A stretch of 20,170 bases of DNA, taken from IMG/VR virus record IMGVR_UViG_3300036832_001011, positions 1 to 20,170 of that record, one strand, 5' to 3'. The notes beneath the pieces were generated by a model. That model made no database searches. It saw only the letters and a program-made list of their open reading frames with translations, and was not told the origin of the DNA. The translations under genes were made by a program, and so were the position numbers. This stretch comes from a virus. Below are positions 6,243 through 17,658 of this stretch, piece by piece; positions within the stretch are counted from its first letter, which is position 1, and each line of letters begins with the position of its first letter.

Positions 6243-7598
6243 CTAGCGCCTCCGGGCCTTGGGCGTGCCCGGTCCCGAGCCCGGCTCTTCGGCGTCGGCC
6301 TGGACCTCGTCGGCCTCGTCGGCCTCCGCCACCGTCGGCAGAGTGCCCACCACGGTGAGCGGCACGAAGCTGGTCGTGTCGAGCGTGCCGAACGCCACGT
6401 AGCCGCCGTAGGCGACCTGGACGCCGAGGATCGACGGCTCGATGACGCTGAGCAGCCCGATGACCTCCTCGTAGACCTCGTAGAGCGTCGAGGGCCCGAC
6501 GATGAGCGTGCCGCTGGCGAAGGTGGGCACCACGATGCGGGGCAGGCCGAACAGGTCGCCGGCGAACATGCCGAGCTGGCTGGTGCCCGGCGCGCCCATC
6601 TCGCGGGTCGTGTCGACGGGCAGGACGACGCGTGTGGTGTCGACCAGGGCCCCGAGGGCAGCCCATACGTCGAGGCTGCACCAGATGCGGTCGGGCATGC
6701 GCCGGGCCTGCTGGTAGGAGTGCATGGCCGCGGTGTAGAGACCCGTCGCCCACTGGGAGAGCGTGACGGGCTGGGCCGCCGTTCCCACCGAGATGGCGGT
6801 GCCGGTCGCCGCCGTCTTGAAGTTGGCCGCCACCGCCGTCTCGGTCTGCACCGAGTACACCTCGGCCAGGTCGCGCACGACGATGTCCCACGCCGCGGGG
6901 CTCGTCCAGTCGATGTCCTGGCGGCTGATGTCGACGTAGCCGCCATAGGTGGCCTTGGTGAAGGTGACCGGACTCACCACCATGGCTTGGGAGCTCAGAG
7001 CCGTCTTCTGCGTCGCCTGCACGCCGACCGTCGTGTGTGTGGTGACCTTGGGCCGGGTGAAGGTGGCGCCGGGGATGCCGCCCAATCCTCGAGCTCCACC
7101 GAGGCTCGTGATCAGCGGGCGGTACGAGTCGATGAGGCTGACCACCTGGCCGATGATCGGCGTCGGCAACAGGCCGGGCGTCTGGGTCGTGGTCATGTCG
7201 GCGCGCTGGGCGTAGAAGTTGCCGAGACGTGATGCCGCCTGCTCGTCGCGCACCGAGCGGTCGATGATCGAATTGCCCCGGATGTAGTCCACGATGAACT
7301 CGCCGGGCGTCGACCACGGCGAGGGACGCGTCGGTACGGCTGCGGCGCGTACGGCGGCCGTCTCGGGCCGGGGCAGCGCGGACACGGTGTCGTTGTGTGT
7401 CGCTCGCAGGGCCTCGAAGCCGGCCAGCGGCTCGATCTGGGCGTCGATCTCGTTGATGCGCTGGCGGGCCGCCTCGAGCAGGTTGCGCTCGGCGTCGACC
7501 AGGTCGCGTTCCTCGCCTACCTGGCCGAGAATGGCGTCAATGGTCGAGATCTGCTCGTCACGCTGCTCGCGCAGACGGTCAAGGACAACGTTGGGCAT
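6243..7598 (-). CDS. Major capsid protein (HK97 fold) with N-terminal scaffolding region
   Basis: The start chosen is ATG 7598 (MPNVVLDRLREQRDEQI), with GGAAAGG about ten bases upstream. An upstream in-frame ATG at 7652 lacks support. The 451-aa protein has a coiled-coil delta domain at residues ~5-55 that serves as built-in scaffold, a linker, then the HK97-fold capsid core from about residue 100. Core strands include IPGATFTRPKVTTHTT, MVVSPVTFTKATYGGYVDISRQDIDW and LVGPSTLYEVYEEVIGLLSV. The delta domain is expected to be removed by the adjacent protease. The C-terminus is an acidic then basic tail (EADEADEVQADAEEP...KARRR). Confidence 0.93.
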   Translation of the reverse strand: MPNVVLDRLREQRDEQISTIDAILGQVGEERDLVDAERNLLEAARQRINEIDAQIEPLAGFEALRATHNDTVSALPRPETAAVRAAAVPTRPSPWSTPGEFIVDYIRGNSIIDRSVRDEQAASRLGNFYAQRADMTTTQTPGLLPTPIIGQVVSLIDSYRPLITSLGGARGLGGIPGATFTRPKVTTHTTVGVQATQKTALSSQAMVVSPVTFTKATYGGYVDISRQDIDWTSPAAWDIVVRDLAEVYSVQTETAVAANFKTAATGTAISVGTAAQPVTLSQWATGLYTAAMHSYQQARRMPDRIWCSLDVWAALGALVDTTRVVLPVDTTREMGAPGTSQLGMFAGDLFGLPRIVVPTFASGTLIVGPSTLYEVYEEVIGLLSVIEPSILGVQVAYGGYVAFGTLDTTSFVPLTVVGTLPTVAEADEADEVQADAEEPGSGPGTPKARRR

Positions 7599-9878: not shown

Positions 9879-11312
9879 CTAGTAAATCCGGAACGCCCCG
9901 AGCGCGGCCGGGGCGTGGTCGTAGGCCCACAGCGCGACGGTGGCCGCGGTGAGCGTCGCGATCGACGTGGCGGACTGGCGCCGGCCCCATGCCCACGCGT
10001 CGGCGACGCTGCGACGTGCCGCCGAAGCCGCGGCGGCGTCGAGCGCGCGGTGCGGCCGGATGCGCAGAGTGCCCCCGCAAATTTGTTCTAAGAGCCCCTG
10101 GCACGCCGCGGCGTATTCCCGACCCTTGAGGCCGTCGAGGGCCACAGCGTGGCGCTGCAGTACGTCTGCGACGTCGATGGCGGGCCCCGCCGCGTCGTAG
10201 GCGAAGCCGAGCGGCGCCCAACGCTCGACGAGCTCGAGGGCGCGTTCGGTCACCCAACCGACGCCCGGGCGGCAATCGGCGATCTCGATGTGCGCGACGC
10301 CGGCCTCGTCACGCCAGGCCGCCGCGATGGCGGCCTCCGAGCGGTCGAGGGCCACGTCGAAGCCCAGAGCAACGTGGCCGCGCTGGGGCATCGGGGCCTC
10401 GGGATCCGCCGCCGCGCGCCAGGCGGCGACCGGGATGACCCGCTCGAGGGTGGACACCCACTTGTTGCCATAGGCGCGGGCGAAGTCGTCGGGGCCGAGC
10501 ATGGCGAGGGCCGCATGCATCGAGGAGGCGCCGATGGTGCGCCCGTAGGCGGGGTGGTAGAGCGGCCAGGAGTCCGGGTCGCCCGGGTCGAGCTCGTCGG
10601 GACAGGACCACTCGAAGAAGGCGACGCCCGCATTCTTGCCCGCCAATGCCGCGGCCCGGCCGGCCTCGACGGTGCCGAGCCACCACAGCGCCGCCGCGTC
10701 GCCGGCGGTGGAGAGCTTCCACACCTGGGCGTTGGGACGCGTCGCCTGTGTTGGGACTATCGCCTGATCGAGCTGGGAGCCCTTCATCTGGTCGAAGGCC
10801 CAGCACTCGTCGATGACCACGATGTCGGAGACCTTGCCGTGCAGGCCGGTCGGATTCGGAGGGAAGGGCCGGATCATGCCGCCTGAGACGTTCCAGCGGA
10901 TGTCCTCGGAGCCCGCCATGCGGCGGAGCCTCGCCGCGTCGGCGAAGGGGGCGAGCAGCGGCCAGTGTTCGTTCGTCAGCCAGTCCACCGCGTCCTTCTG
11001 GGTCTGCATCGTGTACCAGGCCCGACAGCGCGGCACGAGCAGCGCACGGTGGTCGAGCACGAGGCCGAAGAGACTTGTCTTTCCGCTTTGCCGAGGGACG
11101 GTCACGACAACGAGCTGGTAGCAGAACCGCCCGTCTTCGTCGATCTCGAGCGCCACATCGGCCACGTAGCGCTGCCAGGGCATGAACGGCTTGCCCACGG
11201 CCCCAGCGAGCCGCGCCACCGCGGGCCCGAAGGTCGCCCGGCTAGTCGTTCGCGGGCTTGCTATCGCCGGGGGTGGCCCGCAGGACGTCGGCCATGAGCG
11301 AATCCCAGGCAT
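9879..11312 (-). CDS. terL: Terminase large subunit (TerL)
   Basis: This ATPase-nuclease cuts concatemers and drives DNA into the prohead. From ATG 11312 it has 477 aa. Walker A is PRQSGKT (73-79), Walker B IVVIDE (164-169), and the coupling motif is KLSTAGD (~199-205). Nuclease-domain acids are seen in GFDVALDRSE (D319) and AYDAAGP (D373). The start is uncertain. GTG 11219 gives 446 aa without overlap, but residues just upstream (SPRTTSRATFGPAVARLAG) look like family sequence before MPWQR, so I chose ATG 11312, which overlaps the small subunit by 71 bases. A GGAGG lies 14 bases before it. Motifs make the function near certain. Confidence 0.93.
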   Translation of the reverse strand: MPGIRSWPTSCGPPPAIASPRTTSRATFGPAVARLAGAVGKPFMPWQRYVADVALEIDEDGRFCYQLVVVTVPRQSGKTSLFGLVLDHRALLVPRCRAWYTMQTQKDAVDWLTNEHWPLLAPFADAARLRRMAGSEDIRWNVSGGMIRPFPPNPTGLHGKVSDIVVIDECWAFDQMKGSQLDQAIVPTQATRPNAQVWKLSTAGDAAALWWLGTVEAGRAAALAGKNAGVAFFEWSCPDELDPGDPDSWPLYHPAYGRTIGASSMHAALAMLGPDDFARAYGNKWVSTLERVIPVAAWRAAADPEAPMPQRGHVALGFDVALDRSEAAIAAAWRDEAGVAHIEIADCRPGVGWVTERALELVERWAPLGFAYDAAGPAIDVADVLQRHAVALDGLKGREYAAACQGLLEQICGGTLRIRPHRALDAAAASAARRSVADAWAWGRRQSATSIATLTAATVALWAYDHAPAALGAFRIY

Positions 11313-11541
11313 CGACAGCTTTGGTTCCTCCTGCACTGAGTCCAGCAGCTTGACGGAGCTGCAGGTACACCGCGTTCGCCCGGGTGACGGCGTCGGGATC
11401 CGACGCCGATTCCGCCCGGTCGAGCGCCCGGGCCTGCACGCGGAGCGCCGAACGCTCGGCCGGGCCGATGTCATGGCGGGTCACCAGATCCCGGTTCAAT
11501 CCGCCCTCGACTCGGCCGACCTGGAACGGCTTGGACTTCAT
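11242..11541 (-). CDS. Small terminase subunit (TerS-like)
   Basis: This 99-aa protein lies directly before TerL. It has a polar N-terminus (MKSKPFQVGRVEGGLNRDL), then two helices (IGPAERSALRVQARALDRAESA; AVTRANAVYLQLRQAAGL) resembling the oligomerisation helices of short actinophage TerS proteins, and a flexible end. TerS recognises the packaging site and loads TerL. The function is assigned mainly by position and helical pattern, since TerS sequences diverge quickly. The upstream gap contains a terminator and a perfect palindrome that could be its binding site. Confidence 0.68.
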   Translation of the reverse strand: MKSKPFQVGRVEGGLNRDLVTRHDIGPAERSALRVQARALDRAESASDPDAVTRANAVYLQLRQAAGLSAGGTKAVDAWDSLMADVLRATPGDSKPAND

Positions 11542-12951: not shown

Positions 12952-13190
12952 CGGCTGTACCGCCCCCGCGCCTTGTCGTGCAGGTACTGGTAGAAGCCGA
13001 ACGGCTCGGACGACTCGGCCAGGCCCATTTGCACGCGCTCTAAGCGCTGGACGGCCTTGCGGACGCGGTTGAAGTGCCATTCGACGCGGTCCCATTCGCG
13101 GCGCGTCATGGCGGCCTTCAGGGCGTCGAGGCGGCGTTCGAGTTCGAGGGTGGCGCGGTTCTCGGCGCGTTTTTCGACGGGCTCGGTCAC
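12948..13190 (-). CDS. 80-aa helical, charged protein
   Basis: Start GTG 13190, overlapping the initiator gene stop as GTGA. The product is almost entirely charged helix (KRAENRATLELERRLDALKAAM, then REWDRVEWHFNRVRKAVQRLERVQ), probably a coiled coil, ending with FGFYQYLHDKARGRYSR. Following the initiator gene directly, it could be a partner such as a helicase-loader-like accessory (inference from place only). No family recognised. Confidence 0.7.
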   Translation of the reverse strand: MTEPVEKRAENRATLELERRLDALKAAMTRREWDRVEWHFNRVRKAVQRLERVQMGLAESSEPFGFYQYLHDKARGRYSR

Positions 13191-13741
13191 GCCGGCGGCT
13201 TCTCGTCCTCGAAGAGAGGCTCGTTTTGGTACCCGTGTTTCAGGGCGGCCCGGATGTCGGCGACTTTGGCACCGATTTGTTCGGGCGGGGTCAGATCAGG
13301 GTCGTTCCAGTCGACTTTGAAATTGTCGCCAGCGCGGTTCTTGACGGTTATTGATGGTTCGGGTCCCACAGTGGGACTGTTTTTGTGTCTCTCTGGGACC
13401 CTTTTGTGTCTCTCTGGGACTGTTTTCGGTGGGTAATCAGTGTCTCTGTGGGACCCTTTTTCCCCACGTTCGGTCGGGTTATCCACAAGGATGATTCGGT
13501 ACAGATTCGTGTTGGATCGTCCGCCTCCGACGGTGCGCATGACTTCACCAGACTCTTCGGCGTACGCCAGCGCCCGATGGACCGAGCTGCGTGACAGGCC
13601 GGTCTTGTGGCAGAGCCGGTCGACCGACGGCCAGGCGTAGCCGTCGTGGTCGCAGTGGTCGGCCAGGGCGAGCAGGACCAGGCGCGGCACCGGCGGGAGT
13701 TGTGAGTGTTCGAAGACGGCGGCCATCACCCGGACGCTCAC
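13187..13741 (-). CDS. Winged-HTH replication initiator-like protein
   Basis: This 184-aa protein starts at GTG 13741 in a GTGA overlap; ATG 13726 is an alternative. Residues ~12-85 form a winged helix-turn-helix like HTH_36/phage replication O-type domains (RLVLLALADHCDHDGYAWPSVDRL, CHKTGLSRSSVHRALAYAEESG, wing VGGGRSNTNLYRI). Residues ~93-130 are low-complexity and hold the tandem VPERHK repeat, which at DNA level is an iteron array. The C-terminal part (WNDPDLTPPEQIGAKVADIRAAL) may contact a partner. Placement of origin repeats inside the initiator gene matches lambda O. The domain call is fairly sure; the initiator role is inferred. Confidence 0.78.
   Translation of the reverse strand: MSVRVMAAVFEHSQLPPVPRLVLLALADHCDHDGYAWPSVDRLCHKTGLSRSSVHRALAYAEESGEVMRTVGGGRSNTNLYRIILVDNPTERGEKGSHRDTDYPPKTVPERHKRVPERHKNSPTVGPEPSITVKNRAGDNFKVDWNDPDLTPPEQIGAKVADIRAALKHGYQNEPLFEDEKPPA
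13363..13454. repeat. Iteron-like direct repeats, putative origin
   Basis: TTTTGTGTCTCTCTGGGAC occurs exactly at 13381-13399 and 13402-13420. A one-mismatch copy of its 15-bp core lies at 13440-13454. A partial copy (GTGGGAC) at 13371-13377 belongs to a perfect inverted repeat, GTCCCAC-A-GTGGGAC (13363-13377). The TGGGAC ends are 22, 21 and 34 bases apart, near whole helical turns, and each is followed by two bases and a run of four or five T. Confidence 0.72.
13479..13487 (+). promoter_or_regulatory. Consensus DnaA box TTATCCACA
   Basis: An exact TTATCCACA lies 25 bases beyond the last iteron, inside the initiator gene. It suggests recruitment of host DnaA to the phage origin. Confidence 0.65.
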
Positions 13742-15205: not shown

Positions 15206-16239
15206 GCTGTTGCCACCTCAGCGCCCCAGGCCGTGAACCCGTCACGTTCATGGCGGGCAAACATGTCCAGCCGTGGCCCTGGCGATGCCTCGGTCACCCG
15301 CTCATAGAAGGCGTCGGGCTTGACCGAATGGCCGACGGCCGGGGCGTCGAAGCTGAGCCGTAGACCGTTGCGCAGCAGGGGTAGCGACTGCCCGAGACGG
15401 GCGAACAGCACGTGTTCTGTGTCGTACATCCACGAGTACGGCGTCATGCCGACGTTTTTGCGCCACGTCATCACGCACTCGTAACGGGCGCCCCATTGCT
15501 CGAGCAGGTCGAAGCCGTCGGGTAGGTGCTTGTGCGTCACCCACAGGTAAACGTGGCAACCGTCGGCGTCAGCCAGGCTGGCGACGGGGAGGTCGCCCAG
15601 CTCGTCAACCGTCATAGTGGCGTAGTCGAGCCAGGGCTCCTGATCCGGGGCCACATGACGCACGACGGTGGACATCTCCCAGGGTGGGTCGATCACGATG
15701 GCGCGGTAGCGGCCGTCAGGCAGCGGTGGCGTCTCTGCGGGTGCCGGCGGCGGCGACCACAGGATCCGCGATATGGCCGGGTCGTCCCATCCTCTCGGAT
15801 CGCCGTCGGGCTTGGTCGCCCAGCTGGCATGGAGGGCTGGCATGGTGACCCCAGCAGCCCGCTCGGCCCAGCGCTTCCACTGGGCGGCGGTGCTGTGGTG
15901 GATGCCGAAGTCGTCCGCCGAATAGGTCGCGGGTACCCCGCGACCTAACTCACCTCGATCCGGCAGCACGGCGGCGATCTGGCAGATGGCCTCGAGCCGG
16001 GCGAACGCCGCCTCGATCTCGATGCCGTAGACCTGGCGGGCCGCGTCCACGAACGCCGTGTCGTCGCGCTTAGCGGACTTCAACGCCTGGCGGAAGCGCT
16101 TGGCCCGATCAGCGATGGCGGCGGCGTAGTCGACAACAGCTGTCAGCTCGGCCGGGGTCTCGGCCTTCTCGAGCTGGCGCCGGAGACGTGCCACCTCGAC
16201 TGCGGCCGGGGCAGTCTCGGGAACCAGATCCCCGCTCAC
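15202..16239 (-). CDS. MT-A70 family adenine methyltransferase
   Basis: This 345-aa protein has an MT-A70 (N6-adenine) methyltransferase domain from about residue 178: AIVIDPPWEMS with catalytic DPPW at 184-187, CHVYLWVTHKHLPDGFDLLEQWG, YECVMTWRKN, and the C-terminal KPDAFYERVTEASPGPRLDMFAR. The N-terminal half is helical (VARLRRQLEKAETPAEL; a region ending DDFGIHHSTAAQWKRW that looks like HTH) and may guide DNA binding. Start GTG 16239 overlaps the upstream stop as GTGA; an ATG further up (16347) lies in the other gene and is rejected. It probably protects phage DNA from restriction or marks it for regulation. Target site unknown. Confidence 0.9.
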   Translation of the reverse strand: MSGDLVPETAPAAVEVARLRRQLEKAETPAELTAVVDYAAAIADRAKRFRQALKSAKRDDTAFVDAARQVYGIEIEAAFARLEAICQIAAVLPDRGELGRGVPATYSADDFGIHHSTAAQWKRWAERAAGVTMPALHASWATKPDGDPRGWDDPAISRILWSPPPAPAETPPLPDGRYRAIVIDPPWEMSTVVRHVAPDQEPWLDYATMTVDELGDLPVASLADADGCHVYLWVTHKHLPDGFDLLEQWGARYECVMTWRKNVGMTPYSWMYDTEHVLFARLGQSLPLLRNGLRLSFDAPAVGHSVKPDAFYERVTEASPGPRLDMFARHERDGFTAWGAEVATA

Positions 16240-16415
16240 GACGTCCGTTCCCGCCGTAAATCCTCGACGGCTCCGGGCTCGAAGAGCATTTGACGGTTGT
16301 CCAGGCGTACGGCCGGCTCGAGCCGCCCCCGCTCGACCAGGCGCCACACTGTCGACTGATCGACGCCCAGGCGCTTGGCGACCTGGCGCGTGGTCAGCAG
16401 TTGCGTAGCGGGCAT
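16236..16415 (-). CDS. Excisionase/Cro-like HTH protein
   Basis: Start ATG 16415 (MPATQLLTTRQVAKRLGVDQ) gives 59 aa. A longer frame upstream would run through the promoter and is rejected. It is a single MerR/HTH_17-type DNA-binding domain: TTRQVAKRLGVDQSTVWRL (helix-turn-helix), VERGRLEPAV wing, and FEPGAVEDLRRERTS. Such proteins act as excisionases or as early regulators. It is the first gene of the leftward operon, divergent from the repressor, so it would be made when repression fails. The transcript from the predicted promoter would start at or next to the ATG. Confidence 0.82.
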   Translation of the reverse strand: MPATQLLTTRQVAKRLGVDQSTVWRLVERGRLEPAVRLDNRQMLFEPGAVEDLRRERTS

Positions 16416-16422
16416 CGGCACA

Positions 16423-16450
16423 GTTTTATGCAAAAGCACAAATAGCGCAA
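16423..16450 (-). promoter_or_regulatory. Leftward early promoter (leaderless)
   Basis: On the minus strand TTGCGC (16450-16445), 16 bases, then TAAAAC (16428-16423). Seven bases later comes ATG 16415, so transcription would begin at the start codon. Its -35 lies in one arm of the shared inverted repeat. Confidence 0.55.
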
Positions 16451-16462
16451 GCGGTCTTGCGA
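16445..16462. promoter_or_regulatory. Candidate operator between divergent promoters
   Basis: Inverted repeat CGCAAG (16446-16451), four bases, CTTGCG (16456-16461), with matching TA/TA flanks two bases outside. The two arms include the leftward -35 (TTGCGC) and the rightward -35 (TTGCGA), so one bound dimer could cover both. A near-palindrome GCATAAGCTTGTGC lies over the rightward -10 (16478-16491). Confidence 0.55.
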
Positions 16463-16485
16463 TATCCACAGGGTGTGCATAAGCT
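16457..16485 (+). promoter_or_regulatory. Rightward repressor promoter (leaderless)
   Basis: TTGCGA (16457-16462), exactly 17 bases, then TAAGCT (16480-16485). ATG 16493 begins eight bases after the -10, so the message should be leaderless, as is common for cI-like repressors and in actinobacteria. Confidence 0.6.
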
Positions 16486-16492
16486 TGTGCGT

Positions 16493-16747
16493 ATGTCCGA
16501 ACTGACCATTCCGGTGTGGACCGTGGGCGACCGCATGGCCAAGTCCCGCAAAGCCGCCGGCATCCCCACCGCGGTGATGTGCGACTACCTCGGCATCCAC
16601 CGCAACTCGCTCAACGCGTACGAGGCCGGGCGCAAAGTGCCGCCCCGGGCCGTTCTGCGCCTGTGGGCCATGCGCACCGAAGTCCCCCTCGAATGGCTGG
16701 AGCCGCTATCTACCAAATGGTATCGGCACACGTTGGCAGCGGCCTGA
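16493..16747 (+). CDS. XRE-family phage repressor (short)
   Basis: Start ATG 16493 (MSELTIPVWTVGDRM) is favoured over an ATG at 16457 inside the promoter. The 84-aa protein is nearly all one HTH domain: RMAKSRKAAGIPTAVMCDYLGIHRNSLNAYEAGRKVP (two helices plus recognition helix, residues ~14-50), then VLRLWAMRTEVPLEWLEP. There is no cleavage or dimerisation domain of the LexA/CI type, so induction would not be by classic autocleavage. It lies divergent to the early operon and just before the integrase, as in a lysogeny switch. A Cro-like role is the alternative. Confidence 0.82.
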   Translation: MSELTIPVWTVGDRMAKSRKAAGIPTAVMCDYLGIHRNSLNAYEAGRKVPPRAVLRLWAMRTEVPLEWLEPLSTKWYRHTLAAA

Positions 16748-16788: not shown

Positions 16789-17658
16789 ATGGAGACACTA
16801 CGGGGAGCGACGCAGCGTTGGCTCCGAGAAAGGGTGCTCGGTGGCGAGATCACCCCGCGCACCGCCCGGATCCTCGAGTACCGACTGGCCGGGCTCTTGG
16901 AACGCTCCGGCGACCTTTCCTTTCCCGACCTCGACCGGACGGCCGTGCGCGCCTGGGGACGGCGCATCGGACAGTTGAGCCCGGCCACACGCCGGCTCTA
17001 CCGCTCCACGCTGGTGTGCCTCTGCCGCTGGGCGCTCGAAGAGGGCATGCTCAGAGAAGACCCGAGCGCACATCTGCCCAAGGTGCGCGAACCGGGACGG
17101 GTGCCGAGAGCGCGCCCGGCGTCCGACGTCGCCGCGGTGCTGGGCGCCGCCACCCGCGCCCGCGACCGCCTCATCGTGGTGGTCATGGTGCAGATGGGCC
17201 TGCGCTGTTGCGAGGTCGCCCGGGCCGAGCTCGCCGACTACGACCCGGCTGCAGCGACGCTCTTGGTGCGCGGCAAGGGCGGTGAGGAACGGGTGCTCCC
17301 GGTGCCGCCGCCCGTCGTCGACGCCATCGACACCTACCGGGCCGAGATCGGCCGCGCCGCCGGCCCGCTCGTCTGCACCCTGCACTCGGGGCGCTGGGCG
17401 CTCAGCTCGGCCGCGGTGGCGCGGATCGTGACCAAGCTGCTGTACGCCAGCAGGGTCAAGACCGCCCCCGGCGACGGCATCACCGCCCACGCCCTGCGCC
17501 ACACCGCCGCCTCAGACGTGCTCGACCGCTGCGGCAACGTGCGCATCGTGCAGGGGATGCTGGGCCACGCCAGCCTGGCCACCACGCAGATCTACCTGCG
17601 CCGGGCCAGCCTCGACCAGCTGCGCGAAGCCATGGGTGGACGCGACTACGCCGCCTAG
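16789..17658 (+). CDS. int: Tyrosine recombinase/integrase, XerC/D-sized
   Basis: This 289-aa protein has a SAM-like core-binding domain (residues ~5-90) and a complete catalytic domain: Arg139 (QMGLRCCEVARAEL), Lys163 (RGKGGEERVLP), His234-Arg237 (HALRHTAASD), His260 (MLGHASLATT) and nucleophile Tyr269 (TTQIYLRR). The separate N-terminal arm-binding domain of lambda-type integrases is absent, so length and layout match XerC/XerD. It should integrate and excise the phage DNA with the repressor-adjacent control. It could use a simple core-type attP or a dif-like site. No attP is obvious nearby. It is convergent with the membrane-protein genes at 17767-18068. Confidence 0.92.
   Translation: METLRGATQRWLRERVLGGEITPRTARILEYRLAGLLERSGDLSFPDLDRTAVRAWGRRIGQLSPATRRLYRSTLVCLCRWALEEGMLREDPSAHLPKVREPGRVPRARPASDVAAVLGAATRARDRLIVVVMVQMGLRCCEVARAELADYDPAAATLLVRGKGGEERVLPVPPPVVDAIDTYRAEIGRAAGPLVCTLHSGRWALSSAAVARIVTKLLYASRVKTAPGDGITAHALRHTAASDVLDRCGNVRIVQGMLGHASLATTQIYLRRASLDQLREAMGGRDYAA

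Follow-up and report, generated by a model that had tools for sequence, protein, structure and literature searches.

A probable theta-type replication origin within the HTH_36 initiator gene of a small, probably actinobacterial phage

Introduction

Replication origins within initiator genes are established for phages lambda, SPP1, P1 and Tuc2009. In lambda and the Stx phages, iterons and an AT-rich region lie in the middle of the initiator gene, and in lambda-type origins iteron changes that leave the O protein unaltered abolish plasmid transformation (PMC7466680). In SPP1, gp38 binds the oriL direct repeats within its own gene 38, beside an AT-rich unwinding region (PMC6316719). The rep gene of Lactococcus phage Tuc2009, of a DnaD-like family by annotation, is annotated as 'contains origin of replication'. 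For P1 oriL in repL, the abstract of one report describes an AT-rich region rather than iterons; synonymous changes in this part of the initiator gene impair replication there, and mutation of its DnaA sites has no significant effect (PMC9948254).

Other arrangements place the origin beside the gene. HTH_36 Rep proteins are known replication initiators of plasmids, among them Paracoccus plasmids (pMARC3, pAES7, pMOS2 and pYEE7/8), and the pYEE REP regions were shown to be functional (PMC6209633). For plasmids with HTH_36 Reps, an oriV with iterons is described upstream, adjoining the rep start, and not in the linker (PMC3832669). The pri-rep-ori regions of PICIs have two iteron sets around an AT-rich region, with the origin located 3' of the rep gene (PMC6092414).

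Here we describe a locus in a complete virus record of 20,170 bases, the whole of which we call the window. Like lambda, SPP1 and Tuc2009, it has repeats inside the initiator gene; as in lambda and the Stx phages these are mid-gene iterons with an AT-rich region, and as in the PICIs two repeat sets accompany AT-rich DNA. Its initiator belongs to the Pfam family of the Paracoccus plasmid Reps, whose upstream iterons count against the reading that we prefer. With a probability of roughly 0.87, we consider the region to be the theta-type origin that a small temperate phage, probably of actinobacteria, carries inside the gene of its own initiator.

Results

An HTH_36 initiator with a disordered linker

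The window is linear and terminal repeats are absent. Its terminase gene (9879-11474) is nearest, at 36-41% identity, to those of some actinophages that are unusually small at 14-18 kb (Rhodococcus RRH1, Gordonia SallySpecial and the Arthrobacter Decurro group), and an integrase gene is also present (16789-17658); the source phage is likely to be a small temperate actinophage. GC skew climbs almost monotonically across the window, which on such a contig, with nearly all genes on the same strand, gives no origin call.

The 184-aa protein matched HTH_36 (PF13730; E=1.2e-13, 51.1 bits, above the curated cut-off of 25) and PHROG profiles for O-like replication initiation (phrog_8540 and related; E=5.3e-18, residues 1-100). 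Phage_rep_O (PF04492, the lambda O family) gave no match in this protein at E up to 0.1. The preliminary description had drawn a parallel to the lambda origin in gene O, with a different winged-helix (wHTH) initiator, and both the mid-gene iterons and the profile matches agree with it. An AlphaFold2 model showed a confident wHTH domain, a low-confidence stretch and a C-terminal helix, and it is the low-confidence stretch that encodes the repeats. A PDB sequence search and Foldseek returned only wHTH folds of a generic kind; the initiator entries 4pql and 4pt7 were among them, but no match had E<=0.001. The features of the locus are as follows.

13187-13741, minus strand: HTH_36 winged-helix replication initiator gene, 184 aa (Pfam PF13730 and PHROG profile matches)
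13496-13741, minus strand: wHTH DNA-binding domain, about residues 1-82 (pLDDT about 85-94 over most of it)
13574-13576, minus strand: recognition-helix residue R56, first in the column scan for association with iteron similarity
13479-13487, plus strand: DnaA box TTATCCACA, between wHTH part and iterons
13298-13477, minus strand: predicted disordered linker encoding the repeats, about residues 89-148 (model residues 88-147, pLDDT <50)
13440-13454, minus strand: iteron 1, GTCCCACAGAGACAC, preceded by AAAAAGG on the coding strand, in the KGSHRDT frame
13406-13420, minus strand: iteron 2, GTCCCAGAGAGACAC, read VPERH
13385-13399, minus strand: iteron 3, GTCCCAGAGAGACAC, preceded by AAAAGG, read VPERH
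13363-13377, no strand assigned: iteron 4, the perfect palindrome GTCCCACTGTGGGAC, in the NSPTVGP frame
13352-13359, minus strand: AACCATCA, copy one of a constant, phased element (AACCRTCA pattern)
13342-13349, minus strand: AACCGTCA, second copy of the same pattern, 10 bp further
13332-13339, minus strand: AACCGCGC, degenerate third copy merging into a GCGC tract of a kind that often follows these arrays
13347-13447, no strand assigned: least stable 100 bp of the window by nearest-neighbour energies, candidate unwinding region

Iterons, a DnaA box and the weakest duplex lie together

The linker contains repeats such as are expected of an iteron-type theta origin. As first reported, two exact 19-bp copies of TTTTGTGTCTCTCTGGGAC lie at 13381 and 13402 (spacing 21 bases), a third near copy at 13440 is 95% identical, and a fourth, partial copy lies in the perfect palindrome GTCCCACAGTGGGAC at 13363-13377. 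TTTTGTGTCTCTCTGGGAC is the longest exact direct repeat in the whole window with copies at most 125 bp apart; in eight first-order Markov sequences the longest repeats were 10-13 bp. The T-runs noted beside the units are present on the plus strand; read on the coding strand, they are A-tracts. The iteron pattern matched six times in the window against 1.3 expected, a count reached in none of 100 shuffles. Five of the six matches are in the array within the initiator gene; the sixth, at 950, has two mismatches, and no intact element lies outside the array region.

The DnaA box expected of such an origin is present as TTATCCACA, which is perfect as described and has no other exact copy in the window. 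Its occurrence here is improbable on codon usage, the product of codon frequencies (0.030 x 0.437 x 0.119) being about 0.0016. All elements had been placed within 125 bp; each of them is present, but the array runs on into AACCRTCA repeats (13342-13349 and 13352-13359), just past the iterons and outside the interval first described, and the probable origin in the window is larger than first reported.

Nearest-neighbour energies also predict an unwinding region as expected of an iteron-type theta origin, at 13347-13447; the weakest 30-bp stretch of the window is at 13478. The second weakest 100-bp stretch (16421-16520) is AT-rich, lies between the divergent genes 16236-16469 (minus) and 16457-16747 (plus), and contains two one-mismatch DnaA-like boxes at 16462-16482.

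The iterons could instead be sites at which the initiator acts in autoregulation, copy control or partition, and the phage would then have its true origin at another place. Repression of the own gene is common among wHTH proteins, and the pair of DnaA-like boxes in another weak AT-rich stretch near 16421-16482 would fit this view. We nevertheless regard it as unlikely: the repeats are mid-gene and not at a promoter, they fall beside a DnaA box where the duplex is weakest over 100 bp of the contig, and their layout matches that of lambda O and Tuc2009 rep, both of which have the origin in the gene.

The architecture is kept in relatives

A first contig scan for relatives with three sequences found none. 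Searches with tblastn gave no match against plasmids and six weak matches against phages, none of the six reaching 80% query coverage; the rep gene of Vibrio phage pYD38-B, a distant match, has neither the repeats nor AACCRTCA. For the family analysis, 219 unique homologs were aligned and cut to 104 below 85% identity.

Six near relatives (L002, L003, L006, L009, L010 and L022) have a common layout of wHTH part, DnaA-type box and iterons, including palindromic ones. Their iterons (GGGTGGC, GGTCGCA, GGGTCTCA, GGGTTCA, GGTCCG and GGGTCCA) differ from that of the window (GGGTCCCA), and each is read in several frames. A conserved protein without repeats, named beforehand as a pattern that would speak against an origin, was seen in none of the six; all keep the architecture with differing iterons.

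The palindrome and T-runs could also be taken for a transcription terminator or attenuator, with the direct repeats incidental, and a short T-run does follow the palindrome on the plus strand. In that orientation, however, a terminator would be antisense to the gene, T-runs recur at every unit, and the palindromic iterons of the relatives stand at the same position with other sequences, so that we hold a terminator to be very improbable.

In five of the six relatives (L003, L006, L009, L010 and L022) TGTGGATAA lies 14 nt past the start of the same tyrosine codon, the L003 version of the DnaA-type box being TGTGGACAA; L002 has TGTGGATAT plus TTTTCCACA. Across the family, DnaA-like boxes number 22 against 3.3 expected, yet they occur in only 19 of the 104 homologs, which counts against the origin reading. 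It follows that DnaA dependence is not family-wide, and the distribution suggests that DnaA use is probably clade-specific. At the linker start of L046, DnaA-like boxes form the near-perfect inverted repeat CTGTGGATGATCCATCCACAG.

The repeats are DNA elements

Exact 7-mers recurring within 120 bp were scored wherever the offset was no multiple of three, and the counts were compared with random synonymous codons; such offsets were used because a repeated peptide cannot account for them. The window linker has 17 out-of-frame repeats where 1.1 are expected (p<=0.0002); of the 57 coding segments in the window, no other has p<0.01. GTCCCA/TGGGAC occurs five times against 0.17 expected. The linkers of 68 homologous genes hold 1594 such repeats against 113 expected, compared with 102 against 62 in the wHTH part and 149 against 105 in the rest. 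The linker reached p<0.01 in 82% of genes, the wHTH part in 1.5% and the rest in 0%; the roughly 18% of homologs that stayed above this threshold in the linker count against the origin reading. Lambda O and Tuc2009 rep, both with the origin in the gene, served as positive controls and were flagged in the expected part, while lambda P, cII and most neighbours were unflagged.

The repeats of the window and of the family are DNA elements, and the initiator ORF contains them as in the lambda, SPP1 and Tuc2009 type of origin. The four linker iterons are read in all three frames, and these differing frames argue for selection on the DNA. The earlier proposal that the repeats encode VPERHK holds for two copies; the other two are in other frames (KGSHRDT and NSPTVGP). 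That the VPERHK protein repeat is primary and the DNA repeats its by-product is barely credible: two copies do share frame and hexapeptide, and in-frame repeats also exceed expectation, but the frame differs in copies 1 and 4, the window and the family both have far more out-of-frame repeats than the synonymous null allows, and the linker encoding the VPERHK copies is predicted to be disordered. Together, initiator family, DNA-level repeats, weakest duplex and DnaA box lend good computational support to the first proposal of a probable origin inside this gene.

Iterons covary with the recognition helix

Many iterons in the family have a common form, an A-tract followed by GGGT and then by three to four variable bases. 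When alignment columns were ranked as predictors of iteron similarity at matched overall identity, column 56 in the recognition helix was the best single predictor, first of 87 columns. Other high-ranking columns were 44, 51, 52 and 55 in the HTH and 68 and 73 in the presumed wing. Tyr-56 goes with GGTGCA in 19 of 19 genes and Arg-56 with GGTGAC or GGTGTC in 32 of 32, that is in 51 of the 51 genes scorable for these classes; the remaining Arg-56 genes, that of the window included, have other iterons. Small residues at this position go mostly with CCCGCA or CCCGAA.

On the best tree, built with the helix columns left out, three of three independent contrasts were concordant, one of them on well-supported branches, too few pairs for significance in a sign test. 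The helix-iteron association is strong in the aligned genes, though with few phylogenetically independent switches, and neighbouring helix residues surely also contribute. From this covariation we infer that the initiator would bind the repeated sites.

A constant phased array adjoins the iterons

AACCRTCA was found by unbiased 7-mer enrichment against a synonymous null. A slightly relaxed pattern gave 186 copies in the 104 genes against 47 expected, in all frames; neighbouring copies are 10-12 bp apart in 72 cases, with 2.7 expected, and the array is constant and phased. About two thirds of the copies are 3' of the last iteron match, typically at most 55 nt away. Lambda O, whose iteron sequence also differs, has no such array, and Tuc2009 rep has no AACCRTCA copies.

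A motif-first scan of IMG/VR with the triple array alone, and no protein reference, gave at least 81 arrays. Among the matches listed, 63 of 81 triple arrays were inside an ORF with an HTH_36-type profile match, all on the coding strand and divided 32/16/15 among the frames. By inspection, further listed arrays comprised eight in similar-looking genes that are cut off or lie at an edge, seven low-complexity loci, one unrelated locus and one designated L315. Some of these loci are contigs already found earlier, which makes the motif-first set less than fully independent of the earlier one.

In the window, AACCRTCA occurs five times against 0.77 expected, and three of these are lone AACCGTCA copies off the array, at 15607, 16291 and 18385. 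A GCGCG tract or short hairpin often comes after the array (77 occurrences over the 40 nt that follow, 31 being expected; for example L011, L076, L063, L262 and the window at 13332-13339). A hairpin test downstream of the array showed a weak folding trend only.

Discussion

From these computed features and the established biology of lambda and SPP1, we propose how the origin may work. The wHTH domain would bind iterons encoded by the disordered linker of the same protein. The A-tract and GGGT part of the iteron is common to most relatives, and the recognition helix, in the neighbourhood of residue 56, would read the next three to four bases. Assisted by host DnaA at the adjoining box, the bound initiator would unwind the weak region that covers the iterons and the phased AACCRTCA repeats, and a host helicase would be loaded there. 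A host helicase is proposed because no phage helicase or helicase loader was recognised among the window genes scanned. SPP1, by contrast, encodes both, and we liken the two by description, not by sequence. P1 oriL differs from the window in its AT-rich region without described iterons and in its indifference to mutation of the DnaA sites, as far as the abstract of that report goes.

For HTH_36 phage initiators in general, we lean slightly towards a bipartite linker origin, in which gene-specific iterons with a simple helix recognition code would be joined to an invariant, helically phased AACCRTCA array. Whatever recognises this array would itself be conserved from host to host, for example a replication factor of the host or an unvarying portion of the initiator. 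If this is true, the array would be a phage origin element without earlier description. In the literature searched, mostly outside subscription journals, we found no account of intragenic origins as a trait of the HTH_36 phage initiator family. The AACCRTCA array and the match between helix and iterons were likewise without an account there, and these two appear to be new.

Under the origin reading, a single gene would be enough to read the origin, the initiator and part of the binding specificity of many uncultured phages. Since origin and initiator would form one travelling cassette, specificity could change without separating them. The covariation would predict the origin that a given initiator fires, and a conserved origin component would be marked by the AACCRTCA array.

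The L315 locus of the motif-first scan has AACCATCA every 10 bp on the minus strand at about 6925-6954. The gene there has no HTH_36 profile match and no Pfam match above threshold, and it possibly represents another initiator family that shares the AACCRTCA element.
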